Positions 9,001 through 64,000 of a stretch of DNA of 64,000 nt are shown here, piece after piece. Origin of the DNA: Castellaniella sp. S9 (GTDB lineage: Bacteria; Pseudomonadota; Gammaproteobacteria; Burkholderiales; Burkholderiaceae_B); assembly GCF_027257175.1 (NCBI RefSeq), contig NZ_JAPFGD010000012.1:1-64000 (forward strand), read 5' to 3'. The stretch's first letter is position 1, and each line of letters begins with the position of its first letter. The notes under the pieces were generated by a model that did no database searches, was not told where the DNA came from, and was given only the letters and a program-made list of their open reading frames with translations. A program made the position numbers and the translations under genes.

Positions 9001-12000
9001 TCGCGCTCACAGCCACCGAGCTATCTGCCAGCAAGTCGCTGGTCGCAACGTCTACAGTCCACGTGCCTGCGGCAGCATCCACTGTGGCCGCGTACTGCTG
9101 ACCATTGACCGTCACCGTGAGCGTTGTTTCAGTACCTGCCTCGGCGGTAATCGCTCCGGCCACTGCAGTCGTCTCAGCACCAGACTCAGCAGCGTTGATG
9201 ACATTGTCGGACGTAATAGAATCAACTGAGATCGTCAGTTCAGGCGCCTTAGTGTCAACCAAGTAGCCGTGCGTGGTGGTCGTCGTCGTGGCATTGCCAG
9301 CGGCATCGGTGGTCGTCACCGATACTGCCAGTGCATCGGACGCCGCTAGATCAGAACCCGCAACGGCAATCGTCCACGTACCATCCGCAGCAACAGTGCC
9401 GCTGTACTCGGTGCTGTTCACCGCCAGTTTGACGGTATCTCCCGCACTGAACTCACCGCTCACCTGGCCCGTGACGGCCACTGGCGCGCCAGATTCAGCG
9501 GCGTTGATGACATTGTCAGCGGTGATCGAGTCAACCGAGATCGTCAGCTCAGGCGCTGCGGTATCTACACCATAACTGTGCGTAGCCGTTGTAGTCGTAG
9601 CATTGCCAGCCGCATCGGTAGACGTCGCACTGACACCCACGGAGCTATCTGCCAACAGATCGCTAGTCGCAACATCAACCGTCCAAGAGCCAGCAGCAAC
9701 ATCTACAGCCGCCGTGTATTCCTGGCCATTGACCGTGATCATCACCGCCGTCGATGCGCCCGCTTCCGCAGCAACCGTACCGGTCACTGCAATCGTCTCA
9801 GCACCAGATTCCGCAGCGTTGATGACGTTGTCGGAGGTAATCGAATCGACAGATACCGTCAGCTCGGGCGCAGTGGTGTCTACGCCATAGGCATGGGAAG
9901 CTGTGATCGTTGTGCTGTTGCCTGCCGCATCGGCAGTCGTAACCGATACATCCAAAGACGTGGCAGCAGCCAGAACGGAACCCGCCACAGCAATCGTCCA
10001 CGAGCCATCTGCAGCAACAGTGCCGGTGTGCTCAATGCCGTTCACCGCCAAACTGACGACATCACCCTCGTTGAACTCACCAGACACCGTGCCGGTCACA
10101 TCCACGGCAGCGCCAGATTCGGCGGCGTTGACGACGTTGTCGAAGGTGATCGGATCAACTGCGACCGTCAGCTCAGGCGCAGTGGTGTCAATCGAGTAGA
10201 CGTGAGTGGTGGTTGTGGTCGTACTATTGCCAGCAGCATCGGTGGTCGTCACCGACACACTTAGCGAGTCGGACGCCGCCAAGTCGGAACCGGCGACCGC
10301 AATGGTCCACGAGCCGTCCGCAGCAACGGCGCCCGCGTACTCGGTGCCGTTCACTGTCAGCGTGACGGTGTCACCCTCATTGAACTCGCCAGACACCGAG
10401 CCTGTGACATCCACGGCGGCACCAGACTCAGCGATGTTGATGACGTTGTCGGAGGTGATCGAATCCACCGTGATCGCCAGTTCAGGCGCTTCGGTGTCAA
10501 CCGAGTAGCTATGCGTAGCGGTCGTCGTCCTGCTATTACCCGCGGCGTCCGTAGACGTGACGCTGACACCCACGGAGCTATCTGCGAGCAGCTCACCGGT
10601 TGCGACATCAACGGTCCACGTGCCAGAAGCGACATCTACCGTAGCCTCGTACTGCTGACCATTGACGGTAACCGTGATCGTCGTCTCGGCACCAGCCTCA
10701 GCCGAAACTGAGCCCGTCACCGTAATCGTCTCAGCACCAGACTCAGCAGCGTTGATCACGTTATCGGACGTAATCGGATCAACAGACACCGACAGATCTG
10801 GCGCCGTCGTGTCCACGCCATAGCTGTGCGTGGTAGCCTGCGTTGTGCTGTTGCCAGCCGCATCGGTCGTTGTGACCGACACATCTAACGAAGTGGCCGC
10901 AGCCAAGTCAGCCCCTGCGACTGCGATCGCCCACGTGCCATCCGCAGCAACAGCTCCGGTGTACTCGGTGCCGTTCACCGTCAGCGTGACAGCGTCACCC
11001 TCGTTGAACTCACCAGACACTGAGCCGGTGACATCCACGGCGGTGCCAGATTCGGCAGCGTTGATGACATTATCGACAGTGATCGAATCTACCGTGATCG
11101 TCAGCTCAGGTGCAGTGGTGTCGATCGAGTAGGCGTGAGTGGTGGATGTGGTTGTGCTGTTGCCGGCGGCGTCCGTAGACGTCGCGCTGACTTCCACCGA
11201 ACTATCCGACAGCAGATCGTTGGTCGCAACATCAGCAATCCAAGTCCCAGAGGCGACATCTACTGTGGCCGTGTACTGCTGACCGTTGACGGTGACAGTA
11301 ATCGTTGTCTCAGTACCAGACTCAGCTGAAACCGAACCAGTCACCACAATCGCCTCTGCACCCGACTCAGCAACGTTGATCACATTGTCGGAGGTGATGG
11401 AGTCAACAGAAACCGTCAGCTCAGGCGCGGCTGTATCGACACCATAGGCATGGGAAGCTGTGGTCGTGGTGCTGTTGTCCGCAGCGTCGGTCGTTGTGAT
11501 CGACACGTCCAGGGTGGTGGCGGCAGCCAGATCAGAGCCTGCAACCGCTATCGTCCATGTACCATCCGCAGCTACCGTGCCGGTGTACTCGGTGCCGTTC
11601 ACGGTCAGCGTGACAGTATCACCGTCGTTGAACTCACCGTTCACTTGGCCAGCGACGCTCACCGCCGCACCAGACTCGGCAGCATTGATGACGTTATCCG
11701 ACGTGATCGAATCCACCGAAATAGTCAGCTCAGGGGCCGTCGTGTCTACGCCGTAGCCGTGTGTGATGGCCTGCGTTGTGCTGTTACCCGCAGCGTCGGT
11801 TGTCGTAACCGACACATGCAAAGAAGTAGCCGCAGCAAGATCAGAACCCGCAACCGCTATCGTCCACGTACCATCCGCCGCAGCAGTACCGCTGTACTCG
11901 GTGCCGTTCACCGTCAAAGTGACGACATCGCCCTCGTTGAACTCACCGGACACCTTGCCGGTGACAGCCAACGATCCGCCGGACTCGGACACGTTGACGA

Positions 12001-14584: not shown

Positions 14585-14776
14585 TGCGTTGGAACTCTTG
14601 ATGTGGTGTTGTCCGGCCAACAATCCATGTCGAATCAATGACTTGTCACTGATCACTGGTTTGCGGGCGCAATAAAGTGACCCTATGTTAGGAAAACCGG
14701 ATGCGGAAACATATTGTCGCCACCGACAGGTTTGGACAGGCTTGGCCCGCCTCCGGACATCCCACTCATTAGATTC

Positions 14777-51969: not shown

Positions 51970-52422
51970 TCAGTCCTTCGGCACCCATTTCAGGATGTGC
52001 GTGGCGATGGCGATCTGCTCGCCGCGCTGGTTGACCGCCGTGACCGACGCGGTGCTGCGCCGGCGCTCGGGATCGATCCCCACGACCTCGTAGTTCACGG
52101 TCACGGTGTCGCCGATCAGCGCCGCCTTCAGAAAGCGCACGCGATCGTAGCCCAGCGAAACCGGCACTTCGGAATCGCTGGGCTGCTGGATGCCGGCCAC
52201 GATCAGGCTGGAGGTCGTCGACATGAATCCCATGATCAGCACGCCGTGCGCGATGCGTTCGCCGTAATACGAGTCGCGCATGTACTGCTGGTTGGTATGG
52301 ACGGGCGCCAGGTCGCCGGTGATCCCCGCGAACATGTAGACGTCGCTTTCGCCGATCGTCTTCGAAAACGTGACCTTGTCGCCGACCTTGAGATAAAAAT
52401 CCTGCCCTGCTGCTTGCTGCAT
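51970..52422 (-). CDS. MaoC-family (hot-dog fold) dehydratase
   Basis: The 150-residue protein has the MaoC/(R)-hydratase signature FAGITGDLAPVHTNQQYMRD (catalytic Asp and His), AHGVLIMGF and a closing strand. Such enzymes hydrate enoyl-CoA to (R)-3-hydroxyacyl-CoA or the reverse. I chose ATG 52422, with AGGAGG 6 bp upstream; the open frame extends further. It is divergent from the DapA-like/enoyl-CoA hydratase genes across a region with two LacI-type operators, so it may belong to that regulon. Confidence 0.88.
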   Translation of the reverse strand: MQQAAGQDFYLKVGDKVTFSKTIGESDVYMFAGITGDLAPVHTNQQYMRDSYYGERIAHGVLIMGFMSTTSSLIVAGIQQPSDSEVPVSLGYDRVRFLKAALIGDTVTVNYEVVGIDPERRRSTASVTAVNQRGEQIAIATHILKWVPKD

Positions 52423-52516
52423 TGCTGCCTCCTTGTTGTGCCTGGTCCGCCAGGCGTGCCGCCCACCGTCCGCCCCGGGCGCACGGCGCCCGGCCACGAG
52501 GGGCCTGTTCCTGGAT

Positions 52517-52542
52517 TCTATACAAAAATGAAAACGATATCA
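52517..52542 (-). promoter_or_regulatory. LacI-type operator near the maoC start with possible -10
   Basis: TGAAAACGATATCA (52529-52542) matches the TGnAAnCGnTnnCA pattern of LacI/GalR operators and lies 107 bp before the MaoC start. On the minus strand TATAGA (complement of 52517-52522) could be the -10. No good -35 is seen. The element resembles the operators at 52678, 55704 and 55805. Confidence 0.55.
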
Positions 52543-52663
52543 TCCAAAACATACAAGCACTTGGATACAAACCTGTCGGCGTAATCTGCAACTCCATGGC
52601 CATAATAAGGTTTTACCTATGAGGAAAGCCCGGTATCCCATCGGCCCGGATGGCTTCTGTATA

Positions 52664-52692
52664 TTGACCAGATTTCATGAAATCGATATCAT
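52664..52692 (+). promoter_or_regulatory. Promoter with overlapping LacI-type operator before the DapA-like gene
   Basis: TTGACC (52664-52669) and TATCAT (52687-52692) are 17 bp apart. The operator TGAAATCGATATCA (52678-52691) covers the spacer and -10, so a bound repressor would exclude RNA polymerase. An overlapping ATTTCATGAAAT palindrome lies at 52672-52683. Confidence 0.7.
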
Positions 52693-52721
52693 CGAACTTT
52701 GATACTTCCGAGGAGCACAAG

Positions 52722-53684
52722 ATGAGTCCCACAGGTTCGCCGTACGTTCCAGCCGGGGTGATACCGGCCGTCCTCATGCCGTTCAAGGACGATCTATCGA
52801 TCGACGAGGGCGCCTACAAGCGGCACCTGGCCGACCTCGCGGGCGTCCCCGGCGTGACCGCCCTGACGATCAACGGCCATGCGGCCGAGGTCCACGCCCT
52901 GTCCTTCGAGGAACAGCAGCGCGCCCTCGACCTCACCATGGATGCGGTGGGCGACCGCACGCGGGTGATCTGCGGCGTCTATACCGAAAGCACGCAGCAG
53001 GCGCAGCGCCTGGCCCGCATGGCGCGCGACGGCGGCGCCTCGTGCCTGCTGGCGTTTCCGCCCAACGTGCTGATGTTCCGGGGCGAGGACCGCCCCGAGC
53101 TGTTCGTCGACTACTACCGCGCCCTGGGCGAGGCCACCGACCTGCCCATCGTCCTGTTCCAGTTCCCGAAATGGACCGGACTGCAACTGTCCCTCAAGAC
53201 CCTGGTCAGCGTCTGCGAGGCGGTGCCGACGCTGGTGGCGATCAAGGATCTGTGCTCCGAGCCCGCGCTGCACGAAAAAAACATCCGCACGCTGCACGCC
53301 CTGCCGCGGCCGGTGTCGGTGCTGACGACCCACTCGTCCTGGCTGATGGGCTCGCTGGCGATGGGCGCGCGCGGTATCATCTCGGGCGCCGGCAGCGTCA
53401 TCGCCGACCTGCAGTCCGCCCTGTTCCAGGCCTACCAGGACGGCGACAAGGCCCGCTGCGAGGCGGTCGGCGCCCGGGTGTATGCCGCGGTGCAGGCCTT
53501 CTACGACCAGCCCTATATCGACTGGCAGGCGCGCATGAAGGCCGCCCTGGTGTCGCTGGGCCGCCTGCCCGCAGCCCACGTGCGTCCGCCCCTGAAGGCC
53601 ATCGACGACCCGCAGCGGCTGGCCCATTGGCTCGATCAGGCCGGCCTGACGCCCGAGACCGTCTACCGCAATGCGGACGCCTGA
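52722..53684 (+). CDS. DapA-family aldolase/lyase with altered active-site tyrosine
   Basis: The 320-residue TIM barrel keeps the Schiff-base lysine (LVAIKDLCSE) and a GHAAEVHALS loop in place of GTTGES. The usual YNVPGRT segment reads FQFPKWT, so the tyrosine of the proton relay is Phe. It is therefore unlikely to be dihydrodipicolinate synthase; retro-aldol or hydratase activity on another 2-keto acid is possible. I chose ATG 52722, with AGGAG upstream. It is followed by an enoyl-CoA hydratase 1 bp after its stop and presumably controlled by the LacI protein. Confidence 0.83.
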   Translation: MSPTGSPYVPAGVIPAVLMPFKDDLSIDEGAYKRHLADLAGVPGVTALTINGHAAEVHALSFEEQQRALDLTMDAVGDRTRVICGVYTESTQQAQRLARMARDGGASCLLAFPPNVLMFRGEDRPELFVDYYRALGEATDLPIVLFQFPKWTGLQLSLKTLVSVCEAVPTLVAIKDLCSEPALHEKNIRTLHALPRPVSVLTTHSSWLMGSLAMGARGIISGAGSVIADLQSALFQAYQDGDKARCEAVGARVYAAVQAFYDQPYIDWQARMKAALVSLGRLPAAHVRPPLKAIDDPQRLAHWLDQAGLTPETVYRNADA

Positions 53685-53685
53685 G

Positions 53686-54492
53686 ATGGGCGGGCAAGCA
53701 TGCCCGGACGCCACGGACGGCGGCGCCCTGGTCCTCAGCGACCGTCCGGCACCCGGCATCCTGGTCCTGACGCTGAACCGTCCCGCCAAGGCCAATTCCC
53801 TCAGCACGGAACTGCTGATCCAGCTGTCGGACCACCTGGCCGGCGCCCAGCAGGACGACACGGTCGCCTGCGTGGTGCTGACCGGGTCCGACCGCGTGTT
53901 TTCGGCGGGCGCCGACATTTCCGGCATGGTCCATCAAGGCGTCGACTGGTACCTGGGCGAGGAACGCCTGGCCCGCTGGGCCTTCCTGCAGGACTACCCC
54001 AAGCCCCTCATCGCCGCAGTCAACGGCCATGCGCTGGGGGGCGGTTGCGAGCTGGCCATGCTGTGCGACATCATCATCGCCGGGACCAGCGCCCGCTTCT
54101 GCCAGGCTGAAATCGGGATCGGCGTGATCCCGGGCGACGGCGGCACGCAGCGCTTGCCCCGGGCGGTGGGCAAATCCCTGGCCATGCAGATGATCCTCAC
54201 GGGACAGCCGATCGACGCGCAGCGCGCGCTCGAGGCCGGGCTGGTGTCCGAGGTCACGGACCCGGCCGACACCGTCGCCCGCGCGATCCAGATCGGCGCC
54301 CAGATCGCCGAGCACCCGCCGCTGTCGGTCCAGCTGGCCAAGCGCGCCGTCAAGGCGGCGTTCGAGCAGCCGCTGTCCGACGGCCTGCTCTTCGAGCGCG
54401 CACGGGTCGTGGACGTCTTCGGCACTGAGGATCGCGCCGAAGGCATGCGGGCCTTCCTGGAAAAACGCCGCCCGCGCTATCAAGGACGCTAG
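53686..54492 (+). CDS. Enoyl-CoA hydratase/isomerase (crotonase family)
   Basis: The 268-residue protein has crotonase motifs: LTLNRPAKANSLS, oxyanion-hole FSAGADI and NGHALGGGCELAMLCDIIIA, and catalytic-region EIGIGVIPGDGGTQRLPR with the two usual glutamates (GGGCE and AEIG). It should hydrate a 2-enoyl-CoA. It starts immediately after the DapA-like gene and ends one base before the convergent lacI stop codon. Confidence 0.92.
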   Translation: MGGQACPDATDGGALVLSDRPAPGILVLTLNRPAKANSLSTELLIQLSDHLAGAQQDDTVACVVLTGSDRVFSAGADISGMVHQGVDWYLGEERLARWAFLQDYPKPLIAAVNGHALGGGCELAMLCDIIIAGTSARFCQAEIGIGVIPGDGGTQRLPRAVGKSLAMQMILTGQPIDAQRALEAGLVSEVTDPADTVARAIQIGAQIAEHPPLSVQLAKRAVKAAFEQPLSDGLLFERARVVDVFGTEDRAEGMRAFLEKRRPRYQGR

Positions 54493-55581
54493 TCAACGCG
54501 CGCGCGCCCCGGCAGAGGCCGCGCGTGCCTTGCGCGCCGCCTGGGCGCGTGGCGGCGGCGCCGTGGTCGAGCGCAGGATCAGGTCGGCCTGCAGCTCGAC
54601 GTGTTCGCTGACGGACTGCCCCGACAGGCGCCCGATGAGGTAGTGCGCGGCGCCCTCGCCCATCTCGGTGGCCGGCACCTCGATGGTGGTGATGCCCGGC
54701 GGAAAATGCGCGCACAGCTCCAGATTATCGAAGCCGATCACCGACATCTGCCCGGGCACGTCGATGCCCTTTGCCGTGCATTCCACCAGCACGCCGAACG
54801 CCAGCACGTCCGAGGCGCAAAACACCGCGGTGGGCGGACGATCCAGCGCGATCAGGCTGCGCAGCGCCTCGCGGCCCGCGGCGACGTTGTAGGGCTTTTC
54901 GATCAGGTATCCCGGCGGCAGTTCGAGGCCGGCGGCCGCCAGCGCCGCCTTGAAACCCTCGACGCGGCCACCGGCGCGGTCATTGTCGCGCGTGATACCG
55001 GCCACCATCGCAATGCGCGTATGGCCCAGGTCCATGAAATGGCCGACCGCCTTGCTGGCGACCCCCACATTGTCGAATCCCACGCAGGGATAGCGGCCCT
55101 CGGCATGGTACGTGTACGTGGTGATCACGGGAATCTCGTTTTCCTCGAGCATCGTGATCAGGCCGGGGTGATGGACCCCGCCGACCAGCACCAGGCCCTC
55201 GACGCCGCGCTCCACCAGGGTGCGGGCCTGCTGGAATTCCTCTTGCAGCGAATAGCCCGATGCCGTGACCAGCAAGGAATAGCCGTTCATGCTGAGGATG
55301 CGCTGCAGCGCCTCGACCTTGCGGATATAGATCGCGTATTCCAGGGTGGGCAGCACGGTGCCGATCAGGCGGGTGCGCCGCGAACGCAGGGCGCGGGCGG
55401 CGCCGTTGGGCATGTAGCCGAGCTTGAGGGCGGCGGCCTTGATCCGGGCCAGGGTCTCGGGCTGGACCTTGTCCGGCTGGGACAAGGCGCGCGAGGCGGT
55501 CGTGATGGACACCTGGGCGCCTGCCGCGACGTCCTTCAGCAGCACCTTGCGATTGCCTTTGACAGTTTTTTTGGTATTCAT
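54493..55581 (-). CDS. LacI-family transcriptional regulator
   Basis: This 362-residue protein has the LacI HTH near residues 14-60 (LLKDVAAGAQVSITTASRAL, then RIKAAALKLGYMPNGAARAL with the hinge) and a periplasmic-binding-protein-like effector domain (GFDNVGVASKAVGHFMDLGH, SVIGFDNLELCAHFPPGITTI). The C-terminus is an Arg/Ala-rich tail. I chose ATG 55581, which places the HTH at the usual distance; the upstream ribosome site is weak. Four LacI-type operators lie in the two divergent regions on either side of this gene cluster, pointing to a local regulon and autoregulation. Confidence 0.9.
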   Translation of the reverse strand: MNTKKTVKGNRKVLLKDVAAGAQVSITTASRALSQPDKVQPETLARIKAAALKLGYMPNGAARALRSRRTRLIGTVLPTLEYAIYIRKVEALQRILSMNGYSLLVTASGYSLQEEFQQARTLVERGVEGLVLVGGVHHPGLITMLEENEIPVITTYTYHAEGRYPCVGFDNVGVASKAVGHFMDLGHTRIAMVAGITRDNDRAGGRVEGFKAALAAAGLELPPGYLIEKPYNVAAGREALRSLIALDRPPTAVFCASDVLAFGVLVECTAKGIDVPGQMSVIGFDNLELCAHFPPGITTIEVPATEMGEGAAHYLIGRLSGQSVSEHVELQADLILRSTTAPPPRAQAARKARAASAGARAR

Positions 55582-55703
55582 CGATAGAGCTTGTTCCCGG
55601 GCGCCCGGCATATCCACACACACTCGAAATGATACATGGAGGCAGCCGCGGGTCGAAAACGGCTGTCGCAAGTCGGCTTGCCGCCCGCCGATCGCCGATT
55701 TGA

Positions 55704-55717
55704 TGCGAACGTTTTCA
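55704..55717 (-). promoter_or_regulatory. LacI-type operator upstream of lacI
   Basis: TGCGAACGTTTTCA has the central CG dyad and flanking TG/CA of LacI-family operators. It lies 123 bp upstream of the lacI start, in the region shared with the CoA-transferase promoter. Autoregulation, or looping with the site at 55805 about 100 bp away, is possible. Confidence 0.55.
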
Positions 55718-55768
55718 ATTTACTCCCTCTTTGGAACAATTGTGTCTCACCAAGGGATTTCCCCTATG

Positions 55769-55818
55769 TTGACACGATATGAAGGACCAGTTTACTCTAA
55801 AAAATGAAAACGATTTCA
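55769..55818 (+). promoter_or_regulatory. Promoter with LacI-type operator before the CoA-transferase/TRAP operon
   Basis: TTGACA (55769-55774) is a perfect -35. TACTCT (55793-55798) lies 18 bp away as a weak -10. The operator TGAAAACGATTTCA (55805-55818) sits over the expected transcription start, with one mismatched base pair in its dyad. A repressor bound here would block initiation. Confidence 0.7.
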
Positions 55819-55883
55819 TCAATTTCCGGGCCAGCGGCCTTTGCTGCGGGCGCGGGTGCAGATACCACGAGGAATGGAGACCG

Positions 55884-57122
55884 ATGCTGAGCCAGATGAA
55901 AATCCTGAGCCTTTGCCACTACCTGCAGGGGCCCGGCGCCGTCCAATACCTGGCCGACATGGGCGCCGACGTCATCAAGCTGGAGCCGGTCGGCGGCGCA
56001 TTCGAACGGGCCTGGTCGGGCGCGGACGTGTATGTCGGCGACGTCAGCGCGTTCTACCTGTGCGCCAACAAGAACAAGCGCAGCCTGGCCCTGAACCTGA
56101 AGGCGCCCGAGGGCCGCGAATTGTTCTTCAAGCTGCTCGAGCGCATCGACGTGCTGGTCGAGAACTTCAGGCCCGGCGTCATGGATCGCCTGGGCCTGGG
56201 CTACGAGGCGCTGAAGGCGCGCAAGCCCGGCCTCATCTACGCCTCGGCCACCGGTTTTGGCGGTACCGGCCCGATGGCCGAAAAGCCCGGCCAGGACCTG
56301 CTGCTGCAGGCCCGCACAGGCCTCATGGCGGTCACCGGCCACCCGTCCCGGCCGACCGCCGTGGGCTGCGCGGCGGTCGACCAGCACGGCGCCGCGCTGC
56401 TGGCCATGGGCATCCTGGGCGCCTACGCCAAGCGCCTGACCACCGGCGAGGGCACCCGGGTTGAAGGCAGTCTGTTCAACGCCGGCATCGACCTTCAGGC
56501 CGAAGCCCTGACGGGCTTTCTCAGCGGCAATTTCACCGCCGCCAAACTGCAGCGCGACGAGCATCTGGCCACGTGGTTCCACCAGTCGCCCTACGGCGTC
56601 TACGAGGCGCTCGACGGCTTCGTGGCGATCTCCAACATCGACCCGGTCAAGCTCGCCCAGGCGCTCGAGAGCGACGCCCTGATGGACATGGCGCACCTGA
56701 ACCGCTTCGAGGACCGCGACGACTACGCCCGCGAGGTCGCCGCCCAGGTCGCGCGCCGCACCATCGCCCAGATCAGCGAGGCGTTCGACGCGCTCTCGCT
56801 CTGGTACGCCCCCGTCCAGGACTACAACGACCTGCTGCGGGATCCCCAGGCATTGCACAACGAGGTATTCCGCATGATCGAAATCGACGGCAGTCCGGCA
56901 ACGCTGGTCAACCACCCGATACGCTACGACGGCAAGGCGCCGGCGCTGCACACGCTGGCGCTGACGCCCGGCGAGCACAGCGCCCAGATCCTCGAGGAAA
57001 TCGGCTGCACCGCCGACCAGATCCGGCAACTGGCCGCGCAGGGCGTCGTCCGCACGGCCGACGCCCCGGCGCACGGGAAGAAACACTGGCGGGCCGTCCA
57101 GCGCCCGGCTGCGACTGCATGA
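55884..57122 (+). CDS. CaiB/BaiF-family protein with Asn at the catalytic Asp position
   Basis: The 412-residue protein has class III CoA-transferase landmarks: SLCHYLQGPGAVQYLADMGADVIKLEP, LVENFRPGVMDRLGLGYEAL, and IYASATGFGGTGPMAEKPGQD. Where the nucleophilic Asp normally lies (VDVALLDA-like), it reads VEGSLFNAGI. Activity by the standard acyl-anhydride route is therefore uncertain. I chose ATG 55884 with GGAG upstream; the earlier in-frame ATG precedes the operator and is unlikely. First gene of the LacI-controlled TRAP operon, overlapping dctQ by 4 bp. Confidence 0.85.
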   Translation: MLSQMKILSLCHYLQGPGAVQYLADMGADVIKLEPVGGAFERAWSGADVYVGDVSAFYLCANKNKRSLALNLKAPEGRELFFKLLERIDVLVENFRPGVMDRLGLGYEALKARKPGLIYASATGFGGTGPMAEKPGQDLLLQARTGLMAVTGHPSRPTAVGCAAVDQHGAALLAMGILGAYAKRLTTGEGTRVEGSLFNAGIDLQAEALTGFLSGNFTAAKLQRDEHLATWFHQSPYGVYEALDGFVAISNIDPVKLAQALESDALMDMAHLNRFEDRDDYAREVAAQVARRTIAQISEAFDALSLWYAPVQDYNDLLRDPQALHNEVFRMIEIDGSPATLVNHPIRYDGKAPALHTLALTPGEHSAQILEEIGCTADQIRQLAAQGVVRTADAPAHGKKHWRAVQRPAATA

Positions 57123-57736
57123 CGGCGGGCACGGTCATGGACGACAAAAACCCACCCCCGCGGTTCGTCCGCTTCATGGACGGGCTCAACGGCCTGCTGA
57201 TCAAGCTGTGCGGCCTGGCCTTCGCCATCATGGTGGTCTCGATATTCTTCGGGATCCTGATCCGGTTCGTTTTTTCCCACCTGGCGCTGCACATCGCGGC
57301 GCCGTGGACGGACGAACTCGCCCGCTACCTGCTGATCTGGTCCGTGTTCATCGCGGGCGGCGTCGGCGCACGCACCGGGCAATTGATCGGCATCGACATC
57401 CTGGTCACGCACCTGCCGGCGCGGATCGGCCAGTCGGCAAAATACATCGTCCACGCCCTGTCCATCGGCTTTTATGTGGCCCTGATGGTGATCGGCTGGC
57501 GCTGGATGGAATTCGGCCAGATCGAGATGTCGCCGGTCATGGACATCCCGATGTCCATGGTCTTTGCCGCCATGATGGTCGGCGGCCTGCTGATGGCGCT
57601 CAACACCATCGCCCTGATCCTCGAGGCCCGCTCGCGTGGCAAGGACATCCGCCACGCCGCCAGCGCCGAGACCGAGATCGATGATCTCGTCAACCAATAT
57701 GCCACTGAAACCCAGCCACAGGGCTCACTGAAATGA
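57119..57736 (+). CDS. TRAP transporter small permease (DctQ-type)
   Basis: The 205-residue protein has four spans and DctQ landmarks: FGILIRFVFSHLALH, WTDELARYLLIWSVFIAGG, IGIDILVTHLP and MVIGWRWMEFGQIEMSPVMDIPMSM. It overlaps the CoA-transferase gene by 4 bp (ATGA) and dctM by 4 bp. ATG 57137 is an alternative start. It is the closest relative in the window of the shortened DctQ at 45665-46084. Confidence 0.92.
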   Translation: MTAGTVMDDKNPPPRFVRFMDGLNGLLIKLCGLAFAIMVVSIFFGILIRFVFSHLALHIAAPWTDELARYLLIWSVFIAGGVGARTGQLIGIDILVTHLPARIGQSAKYIVHALSIGFYVALMVIGWRWMEFGQIEMSPVMDIPMSMVFAAMMVGGLLMALNTIALILEARSRGKDIRHAASAETEIDDLVNQYATETQPQGSLK

Positions 57737-59007
57737 TACTCGTCCTTGCGTGCAGCCTGATCCTGTTCATGGCATTGAGCATGCCCATTGCCGTTGCGCT
57801 GGGCTTTTCTTCCCTGCTGGCCCTGCTGCATCGGGGCGAACCGGCGATGATGCTGGCCTCCAGCGCCTTCGAATCCCTGGATTCGTTCAGCCTGCTGGCG
57901 GTGCCGTTCTTCATCCTGGCCGGCAACCTCATGCAAAAGGGCGGCATCGCACGCCGCCTGGTGAACCTCGCGCAGGCGATCGTCGGCTGGATCACCGGCG
58001 GCCTGGGCGCCGTGGTCGTCCTGACCTCGATGTTCTTTGCGACCATGTCGGGCTCGTCGTCGGCCACCGCGGCGGCGATCGGCTCCATGGTGATCCCCGA
58101 GATGGAGAAAAAAGGCTATCCGCGCCGCTTTGCCGCCGCGATCACGGCCTCGTCTGGCGAACTGGGCGTCATCATCCCGCCCTCGATCCCGATGATCATC
58201 TATGCCACCTCGATGAACGTCTCGATCGGGGACCTGTTCATCGCCGGCATCCTCCCGGGCATCCTCATCGGCCTATCGCTGATCCTCACCGTGTACATCA
58301 TCTCGCGGCGGATGGGCTACGACCGGGGCAATGGCATCGGCCTGCGCACATGGATCCTCGAACTGGGACCCGCCGTGCGCGACTCCGTTTTCGCCATCAT
58401 CATGCCGGTGCTGATCCTCGGCGGCATCTATACCGGCTGGTTCACGCCCACCGAGGCCTCGGTCATCGCGGTGGTGTACGGCGTGATCGTGGGCATCTAC
58501 GTCTACAAGGAGCTTCGCTGGCGCGAGCTGCTCGAGATCTTCGGCCGGTCCGCCCTGATCTCGTCGGTGGTGCTGCTGCTGGTGGCCTTCGCCTCGATCT
58601 TTGCCTACATCCTGACCATCAATCAGGTACCCCAGAAGGTCGGCGCGGCAATCGCCGCGTTCTCGGACGATCCGATCGTCTTTCTGCTGCTCATCAACAT
58701 CCTGCTGTTCGTCGTCGGGATGTTCATGGAGACCCTGGCCTCGATCATGATCCTGGGTCCTATTCTCGCACCGGTGGCCGTCATGTACGGCATCGATCCG
58801 ATGCACTTCGGCGTCATCATGATCGTCAACCTCGCCGTCGGCATGGTCACGCCGCCGGTGGGGATCAATCTCTTCATTGTCTGCCAGGTTGCGCGGGTCA
58901 GCATGGAGCGCCTCATGCGCCCCTTGCTGATATTCCTGGGCGTGCTGATCGTCGACGTTCTGATCATCTCGTACCTGCCCTCGCTCAGCCTCATCCTGAT
59001 CCAGTAA
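57733..59007 (+). CDS. TRAP transporter large permease (DctM-type)
   Basis: The 424-residue polytopic protein is intact, with SLDSFSLLAVPFFILAGNLM, FFATMSGSSSATAAAIGSMVIPEME, IPPSIPMIIYATSMNVSIG, FTPTEASVIAVVYG and VTPPVGINLFIVCQ. It provides the reference that shows what the decayed dctM at 45284-45621 has lost. Translation is coupled to dctQ by a 4-bp overlap. Confidence 0.95.
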   Translation: MILVLACSLILFMALSMPIAVALGFSSLLALLHRGEPAMMLASSAFESLDSFSLLAVPFFILAGNLMQKGGIARRLVNLAQAIVGWITGGLGAVVVLTSMFFATMSGSSSATAAAIGSMVIPEMEKKGYPRRFAAAITASSGELGVIIPPSIPMIIYATSMNVSIGDLFIAGILPGILIGLSLILTVYIISRRMGYDRGNGIGLRTWILELGPAVRDSVFAIIMPVLILGGIYTGWFTPTEASVIAVVYGVIVGIYVYKELRWRELLEIFGRSALISSVVLLLVAFASIFAYILTINQVPQKVGAAIAAFSDDPIVFLLLINILLFVVGMFMETLASIMILGPILAPVAVMYGIDPMHFGVIMIVNLAVGMVTPPVGINLFIVCQVARVSMERLMRPLLIFLGVLIVDVLIISYLPSLSLILIQ

Positions 59008-59024
59008 ACCAAGGAGGATTCAAC

Positions 59025-60014
59025 ATGTCCAAGAAGACACCGTCAACTTCGATCAAGCTCGCCCTCGCGGCGGCCATGGCCGGCCTTGCCCTTGGGGCCC
59101 AGGCCGCCACCCTGGAGCTGCAGCTGGGCCATACCCAGCCGGTCAACAGCCCCTACGACCTGACCTCGCACAAGTTCGCCGAGATCGTCGCCCAGAAATC
59201 CAACGGCGACATCAAGGTCAACGTGTTCCCGCAGTCGCAGCTGGGCGGGGAAGTCAAGATGATCCAGGCGGCCCGCCTGGGGTCCCTGGACATGGTCATC
59301 ACCGCCCAGGCCGTGCTGGGCCCGACCATCAAGGAATACATGATCTTCGACACGCCCTACCTGTTCGACGACATCGAACAGGCCAACAAGGTGCTGGCGG
59401 GCCCCGTCGGGCGCAAATACCTCGACATGCTGCCCAAGTACGGCCTGGTCGGCCTGGATTTTCTCTATGCGATCGAACGCGACATCGCGTCCACCAAGCC
59501 GATCAAGAACGCGAAAGACTTCGAAGGCCTGAAACTGCGCGTCATGCAGGCGCCGGGCTACGTCAAGACCTACGAAATGCTGGGCTCGCAGCCCACGCCC
59601 ATGGCCTACAACGAGGTCTACCTGGCCATGCAGCAGGGTGTGGTGGACGGCGGCGATTTCTCGCCCGAAAGCGTCACGCTGGACAAGTTCACCGAGGTGG
59701 CGGACTACTTCAACCTGACCAAGACCCAGTACCTGCCCGCGCTGCTGGTGTACTCGAAGAAGAAATGGGACGCCCTGCCGCCCGAGACCCAGAAGCTGCT
59801 GCAGGACGCCTCGGCCGAAACGATGACCCACGCCGCCGGTTTCTACAAGCAGACCTACGACCAGGCGATGGCCGAGCTCAAGCAGTCGGGCATGACCATC
59901 ATCGATAGCGACCGCGCCGACATCAAGAAGGCGGTCGTGGACGTGAAGACCGAGCTCTTCAAGTCGATCCCCGACGGCCAGAAGCTCTACGACGAAATCC
60001 AGGCCGCCAAGTAA
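59025..60014 (+). CDS. TRAP transporter substrate-binding protein (DctP-type)
   Basis: The 329-residue secreted protein has a signal peptide (residues 1-27, ending GLALGAQA), LQLGHTQPVNSPYDLTSHKF, QLGGEVKMIQAARLGS and the ligand region GLKLRVMQAPGYVKTYEMLG with the conserved arginine. AAGGAGG precedes ATG 59025. It supplies substrate to the adjacent permease. The nearby acyl-CoA enzymes suggest a carboxylic acid that is then activated to a CoA thioester. A stem-loop follows. Confidence 0.93.
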   Translation: MSKKTPSTSIKLALAAAMAGLALGAQAATLELQLGHTQPVNSPYDLTSHKFAEIVAQKSNGDIKVNVFPQSQLGGEVKMIQAARLGSLDMVITAQAVLGPTIKEYMIFDTPYLFDDIEQANKVLAGPVGRKYLDMLPKYGLVGLDFLYAIERDIASTKPIKNAKDFEGLKLRVMQAPGYVKTYEMLGSQPTPMAYNEVYLAMQQGVVDGGDFSPESVTLDKFTEVADYFNLTKTQYLPALLVYSKKKWDALPPETQKLLQDASAETMTHAAGFYKQTYDQAMAELKQSGMTIIDSDRADIKKAVVDVKTELFKSIPDGQKLYDEIQAAK

Positions 60015-60021
60015 GCAGCGA

Positions 60022-60060
60022 GGCGCCTGCCTGCGGTGAGGGACTTCGCACGCAGGCGCC
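60022..60060 (+). other. Stem-loop between dctP and the acyl-CoA dehydrogenase gene
   Basis: Perfect 9-bp arms GGCGCCTGC (60022-60030) and GCAGGCGCC (60052-60060) surround a 21-base loop, without a T-tract. It is placed as in the other two intact TRAP operons. Confidence 0.55.
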
Positions 60061-60075
60061 GATCCCAGATCGAAC

Positions 60076-61260
60076 ATGAATGTGAATGACGAACAGACCA
60101 TGAGCAATGAATCAGTATCCGCAGCGGACCGCCAACTGCTGCAAGAGGCCGCGACCCGGTTCGCGCGCGAGAAAATCCAGCCACTGGCGGCGGAACTGGA
60201 CCGCAGTGCGAGCTTTCCCCGCGACCTCTATCGCGAGATGTGCGGGCTGGGCCTGTTCGGGGTCACCGTGCCGCAGGAATATGGCGGGGTCGGCGCCGAC
60301 TGCCGGACGTACGCCATGGTCATGGAGGCCCTGGCCGGCGGCTATGCGGCCGTGGGCGATTACTTCAGCCTGATGGAATTGGTGTCCTCCCTGCTGGCGC
60401 AGCACGGCACCCCCGAACAACGGACGAACTATCTGGCCCCTCTGCTGAGCGGCGAGCGCCTGTGCGCCTTTGCGCTGACCGAGCCGCAGGCGGGATCGGA
60501 CCTCGCCGGCATCAGCACGACCGCAAGGCGCACCGGGACGGGCTGGGTGCTGAACGGCTCCAAGCTATGGATCCAGAATGCGCCGGTGTGCGATTTCGCG
60601 CTGGTGCTGGCCCGCATCGACACCCCGGATGACCCCAAGGCCACGGGCGTGTTCATCGTGGATGCCGATCGCAAGGGATTCAGCCGCGGCCCCGCGGAGG
60701 ACAAAATGGGACAGCGGGCCTCGCAGGTCGGCGCCCTGTACTTCGACGGCATCGAGCTGCCCGCGCACGCCCTGCTGGGGACGGCCGGTAAAGGGCTGCG
60801 CACGATGCTGGGCGCCCTGGACAAGGGCCGGGTCGGCATGGCGTCGCTGGCCGTCGGCATCCACCAGGCGGCCCTCGACGCCGCGCTGGAGCAGGCGCTG
60901 GCCCGCAGGCAGTTCGGACGGCCGATCGCGGACTTCCAGGCCATCCAGTTCATGCTGGCCGACATGGCCAAGGACCTGCACGCGTCCAGGCTGCTGGTGC
61001 AGGATGCCGCGCGCCGCCTCGACCATCGCGAGGACGCCTCCCAATACTGCTCGATCGCCAAGTGCTTCGCCACGGATGCGGCCAACCTGCATGTGTCCAA
61101 CGCCCTGCAGGTGTTCGGCGGCAGCGGCTACATTCGCGGCTTTCCGATCGAGCGGCTGTTTCGCGACGCGCGGATCACCCAGATCTATGAAGGCACGAAT
61201 CAGATTCAAAGAATCATCATCGCACGCAAGCTGATGGCGGGCGCCGCAACGCCCGCCTAG
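60076..61260 (+). CDS. Acyl-CoA dehydrogenase
   Basis: The 394-residue flavoprotein has family signatures FGVTVPQEYGGVGADC, CAFALTEPQAGSDLAGI, WIQNAPVCDFALVLAR, QFGRPIADFQAIQFMLADMAKD and QVFGGSGYIRGFPIERLFRDARITQIYEGTNQIQ; the Glu in YEGTNQIQR is the expected catalytic base. It introduces a 2,3 double bond into an acyl-CoA and passes electrons to ETF. ATG 60100 is an alternative start. It forms a logical step before the enoyl-CoA hydratase at 53686. Confidence 0.94.
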   Translation: MNVNDEQTMSNESVSAADRQLLQEAATRFAREKIQPLAAELDRSASFPRDLYREMCGLGLFGVTVPQEYGGVGADCRTYAMVMEALAGGYAAVGDYFSLMELVSSLLAQHGTPEQRTNYLAPLLSGERLCAFALTEPQAGSDLAGISTTARRTGTGWVLNGSKLWIQNAPVCDFALVLARIDTPDDPKATGVFIVDADRKGFSRGPAEDKMGQRASQVGALYFDGIELPAHALLGTAGKGLRTMLGALDKGRVGMASLAVGIHQAALDAALEQALARRQFGRPIADFQAIQFMLADMAKDLHASRLLVQDAARRLDHREDASQYCSIAKCFATDAANLHVSNALQVFGGSGYIRGFPIERLFRDARITQIYEGTNQIQRIIIARKLMAGAATPA

Positions 61261-61313
61261 CACCGCGCAAAGATTTGCTTTACCTATCAACAGGCAACAC
61301 AAAGGAAGAACAC

Positions 61314-61367
61314 ATGTTCTGCCACGCACCGGCTGTACCCCCGCCCGAATCCAGGAGGCGGCCATGA
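61314..61367 (+). CDS. Possible 17-codon upstream ORF coupled to the SDR gene
   Basis: ATG 61314 is preceded by AAAGGAAG at good spacing and encodes MFCHAPAVPPPESRRRP. Its TGA (61365-61367) overlaps the ATG of the SDR (61364-61366), and the SDR ribosome site AGGAGG lies inside it. A run of prolines near the end could slow ribosomes. It may be a coupling leader rather than a functional peptide. Confidence 0.45.
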   Translation: MFCHAPAVPPPESRRRP

Positions 61368-62143
61368 ACCCAGCACGCGAGGACCGGCGGGTCGCGATCA
61401 TCACCGGCGCGCGCCGCGGCATCGGGCGCGCCACCGCATTCGAACTGGCCCGCCAGGGATACGACCTGGTGCTCAACGACGCGGTCGACGACGCGGGCGT
61501 GCGGGAGGTCCTGGACGGTGTCGCCGCCCTGGGCGCGCGGGCGGAATTCATACACGCCGATATCGCCGACTTGTCGACGCACGACGCCATCGCCGAGCGG
61601 GCCTACCGGGCATACGGCCGGCTGGATGCCCTGGTCAACAACGCCGGCATCCAGGTCCGCCAGCGCGGCGACCTGCTGGACGTGACGCCCGAGCGCTTCG
61701 ACGAGATCGTCGGCATCAACCTGCGGGGCAATTTCTTTCTCACACAGAACGTATCGCGCCGCATGCTGGCCGACGGACGGACCGACAGCCGCTGCATCGT
61801 GACGCTGACCTCGTCCAATGCGGAGCTGGTCTCTGTCGAAAAAGGGGAATACTGCGTCTCGAAGAGCGGCCTGTCGATGGCCGTCAAGCTGTTCGCGGTG
61901 CGTCTGGCCCAAGCCGGCATCTCGGTGTTCGAGATCCGCCCCGGCCTCATCCGCACCGACATGACGGCGGAGGTCCGGCAGCACTACGGCGACAGGATCG
62001 ACGAGGGGCTGTCCCCCGTGCGCCGTTGGGGTGAGCCCGAGGAGGTCGGGCGCGCAGTGGCGACCTTGGTGCTGGGGCTGCTGCCCTTCGCAACAGGCAT
62101 CGCCGTCGACATCGACGGCGGCTTGCTGATTCCGCGGCTGTGA
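61364..62143 (+). CDS. Short-chain dehydrogenase/reductase
   Basis: The 259-residue classical SDR has TGARRGIGRA near residue 16, NNAG near 92, Ser in LTSSNAEL, and YCVSKSGLSM as the YxxxK site, ending FATGIAVDIDGG. It is last in the LacI-controlled operon, after acyl-CoA dehydrogenase. Oxidation of the 3-hydroxyacyl product, or of a free alcohol substrate, is plausible. AGGAGG lies before ATG 61364. Confidence 0.9.
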   Translation: MNPAREDRRVAIITGARRGIGRATAFELARQGYDLVLNDAVDDAGVREVLDGVAALGARAEFIHADIADLSTHDAIAERAYRAYGRLDALVNNAGIQVRQRGDLLDVTPERFDEIVGINLRGNFFLTQNVSRRMLADGRTDSRCIVTLTSSNAELVSVEKGEYCVSKSGLSMAVKLFAVRLAQAGISVFEIRPGLIRTDMTAEVRQHYGDRIDEGLSPVRRWGEPEEVGRAVATLVLGLLPFATGIAVDIDGGLLIPRL

Positions 62144-62210: not shown

Positions 62211-62969
62211 CTAGATAAAGCCGCCGTTCACGTGGATGACCTGCCCGGTGACGTAGCTGGCCTCGGCCGAGGCGAGGAACGCCACCATGGCCGCGACTTC
62301 CTCGGGCTTGCCGATCCGGCCCATGGGGATCTTGCGCGCAAAGTCCTCCCATTCCTCGGCCGAGATGAACTGCTCGCCATGGAACTTCGCGATCAGGCCG
62401 GGCACGACGCAGTTGGCCGTCACCCCTTGCGGGGCGACCTGCAGGGCCAGCGCCCGGGTGAGGGCCTCGAGCCCCGCCTTGGCCGCTGCCGAGGCGGGAA
62501 AGAACGCGTAATCCGAGCGGAAGACATGCACATTGTGCGTGCTGATCGTAATCACACGCCCCGCCTCCGAGCGGGCCAGGAGCGGCAGCGCCCGGGTGGC
62601 GAGCTCGAAGAACCCGCCGGTGACCACGTCGTGGACGCCGTCGAATTGTGCGCGGGTGAGCTCGCCGATGGGCTCACGGACCGGATATCCCGCATTGGCC
62701 ACCAGCACGTCCAGTCGCCCGTAGGCCTCGACCGCCGCATCGACGAGGGCGCCGGCCGTCGCCGGATCGGCCAGATCGCCCAGGACGATGCGCGTCGCCG
62801 CGCCGGCGTCCTCGAGCTCGCGCGCCATGGCCTCGCAGCCCTCGCGGTTCGCGAGCGCATGGATGACAAAGCCCATGCCGGGCGCGCAAAGGCGGCGCGC
62901 GATGGCCGCGCCGATGCCGGAGCCCGAGCCGGTGATGATCGCGGCGCGCCGGCAGGAAACTGATTTCAT
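62211..62969 (-). CDS. Short-chain dehydrogenase/reductase
   Basis: This 252-residue SDR has TGSGSGIGAAIARRL near residue 15, NAG in VLVANAGYP, Ser in ITISTHNVHVF and a YAFFPASAAAKAG active-site region. In that region the usual YxxxK spacing is altered (Y..FPASAAAK), so the catalytic pair needs alignment to confirm. It ends YVTGQVIHVNGGFI. I chose ATG 62969 with GGAG upstream. It follows the racemase-family gene by 26 bp on the same strand and probably shares its operon. Confidence 0.87.
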   Translation of the reverse strand: MKSVSCRRAAIITGSGSGIGAAIARRLCAPGMGFVIHALANREGCEAMARELEDAGAATRIVLGDLADPATAGALVDAAVEAYGRLDVLVANAGYPVREPIGELTRAQFDGVHDVVTGGFFELATRALPLLARSEAGRVITISTHNVHVFRSDYAFFPASAAAKAGLEALTRALALQVAPQGVTANCVVPGLIAKFHGEQFISAEEWEDFARKIPMGRIGKPEEVAAMVAFLASAEASYVTGQVIHVNGGFI

Positions 62970-62995
62970 AGCGTGTCTCCGATAGGGAAGATGAG

Positions 62996-64000
62996 TCAGC
63001 CCAGGTCTTTCTTCCAGACGTCGCTGAGCGTATAGCCGGTCGGGAACGGATCCGAGGGATCGACCACGTACTGGTGAAAGCCCGTGATCCAGGCCTGACC
63101 CGCGATGGTCGGCCGCACCCCCTGGTAGGGCCCCACGGACAGGGTCTCGGTGATCTGGCCGACATACTCGGTGCCGAGGATGGAATGGTGGATGAAAGGC
63201 TCGCCCACAGCGATCTGTCCCTTGGCGTGCATGACGGCCAGCCGCGCGCTGGTGCCGGTGCCGCAGGGCGAACGGTCGATCCGCCCCGGCGATACGATCA
63301 CCGCGTTGCGCGCCGTCTTGCCCCGCTCGGTGTGCTCTACCGGACCGGCGAACAAGGTCTGGTTGATGGTGTGGATGCCGGGCTCCTCGGGGTGCACGGC
63401 CGGGATTTGTTCGGCGGCCGCAGCCTTGATGCGCTCGCCGACCTCCACCAATTCGGCCGCCTCGCTGCGCTGGATCTTGTAGCCCAGGGCCTGGGCATCC
63501 ACGATCACGTAAATCATCCCGCCGTAGGCCACGTCGACGACCAATTCCCCGATGCCGGGTACCTCGATCTTGCGATCCAGGGCGAACACGAAGCACGGCA
63601 CATTGGAAAAACGCACGCTGGTGCACTTGCCATTGGCGCATTGCGCCTCGACGGCGACCAGCCCGCCGGGCGCCTCCAGCGTCAGGCGGGTGACGGGTTC
63701 CTGCATGGGTATCATGCCGGTTTCCAGCAGCGCCGTCACCGTGCAGATGGTGTTGCTGCCCGACATGGGGACGTAGTATTCGGATTCCATGATCACAAAA
63801 CCCACGTCCGCCTCGGGATGGCAGGCGGGCAGCACCAGGTTGATGCACTGGGCCACGGTGCCGCGCGGCTCGTAGAGCAGCGTGCGGCGCAGGTCGTCGC
63901 CCTGGTCCTGCAGGTAGGTCATCTTTTCGAACAAGGTCTTGCCGGGCACGTCCAGGACGCCTCCCACGATGACGTCGTTGCGCTCTCCGGCAGTGTGGAC
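62996..64000 (-). CDS. Proline racemase-superfamily enzyme, Ser/Cys type (start off right edge)
   Basis: The frame is open to the right edge and begins VHTAGERNDVIVGGVLDVPG, the family's N-terminal HTAGE region, so only a few residues are missing. The first catalytic position, normally Cys in CGHGT, is Ser (MSGSNTIC); the second, RSPCGTGTSARLA, keeps Cys. In this superfamily Cys/Cys enzymes are proline racemases and hydroxyproline 2-epimerases, Ser/Cys members are reported as hydroxyproline epimerases, and Cys/Thr members as dehydratases. A 2-epimerase of a hydroxyproline-like amino acid is the best guess. Confidence 0.85.
   Translation of the reverse strand, partial: VHTAGERNDVIVGGVLDVPGKTLFEKMTYLQDQGDDLRRTLLYEPRGTVAQCINLVLPACHPEADVGFVIMESEYYVPMSGSNTICTVTALLETGMIPMQEPVTRLTLEAPGGLVAVEAQCANGKCTSVRFSNVPCFVFALDRKIEVPGIGELVVDVAYGGMIYVIVDAQALGYKIQRSEAAELVEVGERIKAAAAEQIPAVHPEEPGIHTINQTLFAGPVEHTERGKTARNAVIVSPGRIDRSPCGTGTSARLAVMHAKGQIAVGEPFIHHSILGTEYVGQITETLSVGPYQGVRPTIAGQAWITGFHQYVVDPSDPFPTGYTLSDVWKKDLG

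Follow-up and report, generated by a model that had tools for sequence, protein, structure and literature searches.

A stretch of 64,000 nucleotides from Castellaniella sp. S9 (contig NZ_JAPFGD010000012.1, positions 1-64,000; hereafter the window), part of a genome of 3,807,583 bases in 33 contigs, carries a gene for a LacI-family protein that very probably represses itself and the surrounding catabolic genes through TGAAAWCGWTTTCA-like operators in two divergent gaps, lacI/caiB and maoC/dapA. From the sequences compared here we infer binding, the direction of its effect, the extent of the transcripts, the effector and the substrate as follows: LacI would bind such operators in the gap between its own gene and caiB as well as in the maoC/dapA gap, would thereby repress lacI itself, caiB-dctQMP-acd-sdr, dapA-ech and probably maoC, and would be released by the pathway's substrate or one of its intermediates, most likely an organic acid or a compound derived from one. 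An earlier reading of the same DNA from its letters only (the sequence-only reading) had proposed one local repressor acting on four dyads, and a blind palindrome search together with the way in which the sites track LacI among relatives supports that proposal.

Operators around lacI and their conservation

What the sequences show directly is where the sites lie, that they are conserved and that they occur together with lacI. All four 14-bp dyads listed by the sequence-only reading were found where it had placed them: TGAAAACGATATCA (52529..52542) on the maoC side of the maoC/dapA gap, TGAAATCGATATCA (52678..52691) in the same gap over the -10 element of the dapA promoter, TGCGAACGTTTTCA (55704..55717) on the lacI side of the lacI/caiB gap, and TGAAAACGATTTCA (55805..55818) at the probable transcription start of caiB, in a conserved block. 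The only exact matches to the pattern TGAAAWCGATWTCA in the whole genome are those at 52529, 52678 and 55805. With at most one mismatch, the window gave five strand-matches, all within the two gaps (100 shuffles averaged 0.01), and the rest of the genome three places (C1:250288, C29:156467 and C30:14298), two of them inside open reading frames (L004 and L006) and the third (L005) about 19 bases ahead of one. When sites were scored as the number of 14 positions matching the consensus TGAAAWCGWTTTCA, which was fitted to the same gaps that it scores, the window contained exactly four sites of at least 12/14, the four dyads of both gaps, and 55805 was the sole zero-mismatch match in the genome. 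At this threshold the dyads are confined to the two gaps. With up to three mismatches there were 68 strand-matches in the window against 27 expected, many of them in a repeat array at 1-8.3 kb, and such loose matches are not special to the two gaps. On the minus strand, positions 2-14656 form an open frame of 4885 aa that runs off the window and in which a 315-bp repeat recurs about 31 times, at 114-9880; many loose near-dyads, for example TGATNACGTTGTCA, fall inside it.

The dapA promoter, TTGACC-17-TATCAT on the plus strand (52664..52692), was recovered by a promoter scan at the place given before, with the operator at 52678 over its -10. In the dapA promoters of the window and of two related loci (L100 and L101), TTGAC and ATGAAATCGATA-CAT are invariant and stand in one register, and thus the operator covers the dapA -10. 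For caiB, the site at 55805 does lie at the probable start, as had been claimed; the accompanying probable promoter, TTGACA-18-TACTCT on the plus strand (55769..55798, with TTGACA at 55769-55774 and TACTCT at 55793-55798), was picked out by eye and is absent from the list of the scan that includes the dapA promoter, and its TTGACA is retained in some rows of the alignment. Because one operator covers the dapA -10 and another sits at the probable caiB start, repression would act by blocking RNA polymerase.

Relatives were drawn from a family sample of 268 genomes (267 besides the window's own), an order sample of 399 and a phylum sample of 398. The local LacI (54493..55581, minus strand) matches the Pfam models LacI (PF00356, 47.2 bits) and Peripla_BP_3 (PF13377, 117.7 bits), both over the cut-off; it thus has the helix-turn-helix and the periplasmic-binding-protein-like domain of LacI/GalR proteins, and a CG-centred even palindrome of the kind expected for them lies near its own gene. 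Orthologues, 61-73% identical over the alignment, occur in 3 of the 267 other family genomes as four copies (loci L100, L101, L102 and L103, of which L101 and L103 belong to one genome, G120), and the next LacI protein is 45% identical. When all 16,384 14-bp palindromes were scored over the seven gaps of these four loci, with the window excluded, TGAAATCGATTTCA came first, its mismatches totalling 14, against 18 for the runner-up and 27-31 for 30 shuffled sets. It also fits each window gap with one mismatch. The comparison of gaps in relatives called for by the sequence-only reading thus returned the same palindrome. In nine gaps, 12 sites of at least 12/14 were seen against 0.06 expected, for a consensus fitted to these gaps. 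A site of at least 12/14 lies upstream of dapA in three of the four orthologue loci, versus none of 28 DapA homologues for which no LacI was found by tblastn in the surrounding stretches, some of which are short and some of which are near-duplicate loci.

Three of the 267 other family genomes hold relatives of LacI (61-73%), of the DapA-like protein (74-82%) and of the CaiB-like protein (55-57%) alike, and LacI orthologues and close DapA relatives are found in the same four of 268 genomes, the window's own included. More widely, DapA-like relatives at E 1e-60 or better were present in nine of the 268 genomes (four at 74% or more, five at 43-50%), and CaiB relatives at E 1e-135 or better in five, namely the four with this lacI and G095. 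In the order sample, DapA-like relatives at 45-53% were seen in 23 other genomes with varying neighbours, and in the phylum sample a DapA-like match was obtained in 1 of 398 genomes, the window's own. A scan of genome contigs for LacI gave only distant proteins (at most 34% identity), and a search of plasmid DNA gave only fragments (at most 5% of the query). A Rhizobium plasmid locus (L154) holds lacI, caiB, sdr and dapA in pieces, also ech, and its lacI/caiB gap contains two sites 86 bp apart.

In scans of the relatives' genomes with TGAAATCGATTTCA, the only match in G120 with fewer than two mismatches is in the sdr/lacI gap of L101. In G116 the sole such match lies outside the cluster (TGAAATCGTTTTCA, L238:3034-3047), between SBP_bac_3-CaiB genes and an MFS gene; the SBP_bac_3 gene is 69% identical to its core-cluster counterpart, and behind it lies another CaiB gene (37% identity to the window's). 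In this relative the same repressor is likely to act on the site in trans.

In the genome-wide dyad scan the three best matches all fell in the two gaps. Several observations weigh against so simple a regulon. The fourth dyad, 55704, was not distinct: the genome holds 16 places, this one among them, that differ from TGAAAWCGWTTTCA at two positions, and by itself the dyad is indistinguishable from background and could be there by chance. Support for it comes from relatives in which a second site stands about as far away (here 101 bp from the next site). Three of the 28 DapA homologues without LacI found do have an 11/14 site, and no site of at least 11/14 was present upstream of dapA in L103, where dapA directly follows lacI, or upstream of the distal dapA of L154. 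Genome G185 has five one-mismatch places for TGAAATCGATTTCA, one in the cluster and four in long open frames. Control of maoC depends on a single site in one genome, and in L102 and L103 maoC belongs to the operon on the caiB side.

Spacing of operator pairs and alternative explanations

A scan of 166 kb (the window, its relatives and neighbouring sequence) for sites of at least 11/14 lying 85-115 bp apart gave six pairs, all in control gaps, at 101, 100, 92, 99, 98 and 98 bp. Two operators are present in seven gaps; their distance is 98-101 bp in five of these and 92 and 149 bp in the others, the last being the maoC/dapA gap of the window. The dapA gaps of two relatives have one site each. 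The spacing of about 100 bp includes a dapA/caiB gap without lacI in it, and paralogous lacI genes (37-42% identity, with other half-sites) have 99-106 bp in ten loci. A motif-free survey of 136 lacI-family loci (51 clusters at 60%; 5 of 141 loci had been dropped for want of a usable lacI) found a similar pair in 30, of which ten, from two clusters, were within 90-112 bp; the pairs of L072, L073 and L103 escaped its criterion and were obtained by looser scoring. In a third lacI cluster the distances were 64-87 bp in nine loci and 28 bp in one, and the ten loci at 109 bp (among L075-L086) belong to a single genus and so are not independent. A spacing of about 100 bp as a rule of LacI proteins was rejected, since other clusters have 64-87 bp.

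We favour the explanation that the two operators of a pair serve two independent promoters and that the distance, without any loop, stems only from the geometry of back-to-back promoters or from common descent of the gap; this is probably how the pairs work. It accords with the position of the caiB-side operator at a conserved promoter position and with the 149 bp of the maoC/dapA pair. Lac repressor-type looping tetramers have a C-terminal leucine-rich tetramerisation helix, which GalR lacks. No LacI-type tail was seen by eye in 17 sequences (one cut by a contig end), a further point for independent operators; three complete orthologues stop right after the core, the fourth is cut by its contig, and the window protein has an extra tail rich in Ala and Arg. 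Nor was helical phasing significant: the best period, about 11.0, was equalled by 7.7% of jittered sets (input of 17 distinct spacings, with 149, 28 and several single-locus values left out), and phasing was not used as evidence. What independent promoters explain less well is the recurrence of 98-101 bp in five of seven gaps, one of them without lacI, and the pairs at 99-106 bp that precede several lacI paralogues whose half-sites differ.

A GalR-like loop, in which dimers at the two operators touch and close about 100 bp of DNA, is the more doubtful reading. It draws on the closeness of 98-101 bp to the 113-bp loop closed by two GalR dimers (PMC4693257), and on a GGN6CC dyad between the operators, in the window GGGATTTCCC (55754..55763), near the midpoint between 55704 and 55805. 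However, 98-101 bp corresponds to 9.3-9.6 turns at 10.5 bp per turn, which is not a whole number, and the second operator of a pair is usually the weaker. GGN6CC was found within 5 bp of the midpoint in all six pairs of 92-101 bp and within 8 bp in 7 of 13 loci (shuffle mean 0.46, largest of 2000 shuffles 4), in a test that was chosen after the sequences had been viewed and is therefore post hoc. It is missing from five other pairs (L098, L099, L075, L154 and the 149-bp pair of the window) and from five of six further paralogue pairs, the sixth having it 23.5 bp off centre; in paralogues of the second cluster it stands 5.5-11 bp off centre in seven of eight loci. A strict 3+3 word search gave excess words only off centre (about 30 bp, or 8-12 bp, to one side), and these were not GG..CC. 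It would be more speculative still, and we consider it rather unlikely, that a group of tail-less LacI-family repressors in this bacterial family uses a fixed two-operator module of about 100 bp with a dyad near the centre, forming a GalR-like loop over divergent promoters and kept while half-sites, genes and transporters change, and that in the window this module controls a CoA-dependent acid pathway not described before, with a DapA-like enzyme that lacks the catalytic Tyr at its heart.

It is very improbable that another LacI-family protein, such as that at C4:69634-70665, binds the operators and that the local lacI controls something else: this second LacI (34% identical) does have a related dyad, TGTAATCGATTACT, upstream, but that dyad differs in its half-site, TGAAA-type sites have stayed next to the local lacI orthologue across rearrangements in each of the four related loci, and the DapA homologues without LacI found (0/28) have no strong site. 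The second lacI-family gene (L118:5601-6671, or G000:C4:69601-70671) is divergent from an SBP_bac_3 transporter gene (L118:4508-5335), and TGTAATCGATTACT lies in the gap between them.

Gene content and possible chemistry

The cluster contains a maoC-like dehydratase gene on the minus strand (51970..52422; Pfam MaoC_dehydratas). On the plus strand follow genes for a DapA-like protein of the DHDPS family (52722..53684) and an enoyl-CoA hydratase/isomerase family protein (ech, 53671..54492; Pfam ECH_1) and, beyond lacI, for a CaiB-like family III CoA-transferase (55884..57122; Pfam CoA_transf_3), the TRAP proteins DctQ (small permease, 57119..57736), DctM (large permease, 57733..59007) and DctP (solute-binding protein, 59025..60014), an acyl-CoA dehydrogenase (acd, 60076..61260) and an SDR oxidoreductase (sdr, 61364..62143; PRK12745 model, 346.7 bits, cut-off 250). 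Convergent with the regulon, positions 62211-63967 hold an SDR gene and a proline-racemase-family gene, and a second gene like the latter (36% identical) lies at L118:1332-2333.

The sequence-only reading had assigned all of these genes, from maoC to sdr, to one pathway. This agrees with the relatives for lacI, the dapA-like gene, ech, caiB, sdr and often maoC, which form a shared core, and not for the TRAP genes and acd, which fall outside it. L102 has the full core, L100 all except maoC, and L103, at a contig end, all except ech; on the short contig of L101 only dapA and sdr of the core are seen beside lacI. Among the lacI clusters the window alone has TRAP genes and acd between caiB and sdr. 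The transporter genes adjoining the core are of the SBP_bac_3-type ABC in L100, L102 and L103 and of the NMT1-type ABC in L101; L102 carries a homologous NMT1 binding protein across the lacI gap, and L154 carries sugar-type ABC genes. L103 also has DctQ and a piece of DctM (42%) beyond maoC at the contig end, and TRAP genes are therefore not unique to the window. That stretch (L103:1-1144, G120) includes an FAA-hydrolase-like gene as well, and uptake in the L103 copy may be served by two systems. For acd, the related clusters gave no close relative; L100 has a distant match (23%) about 1.3 kb from dapA on the other strand, and relatives at 56-57% are located elsewhere in three genomes. The window CaiB is 55-57% identical to the CaiBs of L100, L102 and L103 (69-73% among themselves) and 59% to that of L132. 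From these comparisons, caiB-dctQMP-acd may be a replaced block. Other arrangements occur apart from this lacI: the G095 cluster, where no lacI was found, has maoC and genes for an FAD protein, an SDR and a DapA-like protein (46%) next to tctC. A MaoC and DapA-like pair with a TctC gene is present in L155 and L156 (pLME1 and a Variovorax plasmid), beside chloromuconate and maleylacetate genes and insertion sequences.

The Schiff-base Lys (KD motif) is present in all 34 aligned DapA-like sequences, for which YagE, the best match among solved structures, was the reference. At the residue aligned with the Tyr of YagE, the catalytic Tyr of DHDPS/NAL enzymes, 33 of the 34 have Phe, the window protein included, and only the Rhizobium plasmid piece L154 has Tyr; GSGGE of YagE aligns with GHAAE in the window protein. 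The aldol-type cleavage in the reaction order proposed earlier is therefore a guess, as the Lys is kept and the Tyr is not. The DapA-like clade (L130-L134, L154-L177) has motifs such as NGHASE and FQYP and occurs in many genomes of the order. Carboxylate-type transporters, TRAP in the window and TctC beside homologues in L132 and pLME1, suggest an organic acid as the substrate, and no thiolase family was matched among the ten cluster proteins in the Pfam search. A pathway can be put forward tentatively in which CaiB transfers CoA, Ech or MaoC carries out a hydration, the SDR an oxidation and the DapA-like protein a cleavage or elimination. Comparisons with PDB and NCBIfam gave family-level names only and no substrate. 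The literature searched for this gene set gave no relevant paper, in agreement with the earlier remark that the combination has no pathway name.

Known regulons and significance

The nearest described case found is PtxS, the 2-ketogluconate repressor of Pseudomonas, which binds TGAAAN4TTTCA (TGAAACCGGTTTCA) at its own and catabolic promoters and is released by a pathway metabolite (PMC3402500). The likeness lies in the palindrome, which is exact at 55805 and deviates on one side at 52529, 52678 and 55704, and in control of its own promoter and catabolic operons; it was drawn from operator and description rather than by protein comparison. In contrast, the window cluster has no kgu or gad operon, the centre of the palindrome differs, and PtxS works with PtxR. 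Local LacI regulons with CG-centred even palindromes, frequent autoregulation and more than one site before about 20% of operons are set out by Ravcheev et al. (2014; PMC4052901), where site-pair distances peak at 13, 22 and 32 bp, unlike the 92-101 and 149 bp here. In the gal repressosome (PMC4693257), too, a pair of operators is separated by roughly 100 bp and an element marks the loop centre, but there the distance is 113 bp and the element an HU site, whereas here the loop is hypothetical and the spacing comes from sequence. The type of regulon is already known, and what is new is this member, its gene set and perhaps its spacing.

These results predict which operators the regulator uses, a pairing tested independently by conservation, and set the core of an unnamed catabolic pathway apart from exchangeable uptake systems. 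The chemistry of a DapA-like clade with Phe in place of the catalytic Tyr should not be assumed, and the similar spacing before several diverged lacI paralogues makes a simple experiment possible that would tell a loop from no loop.

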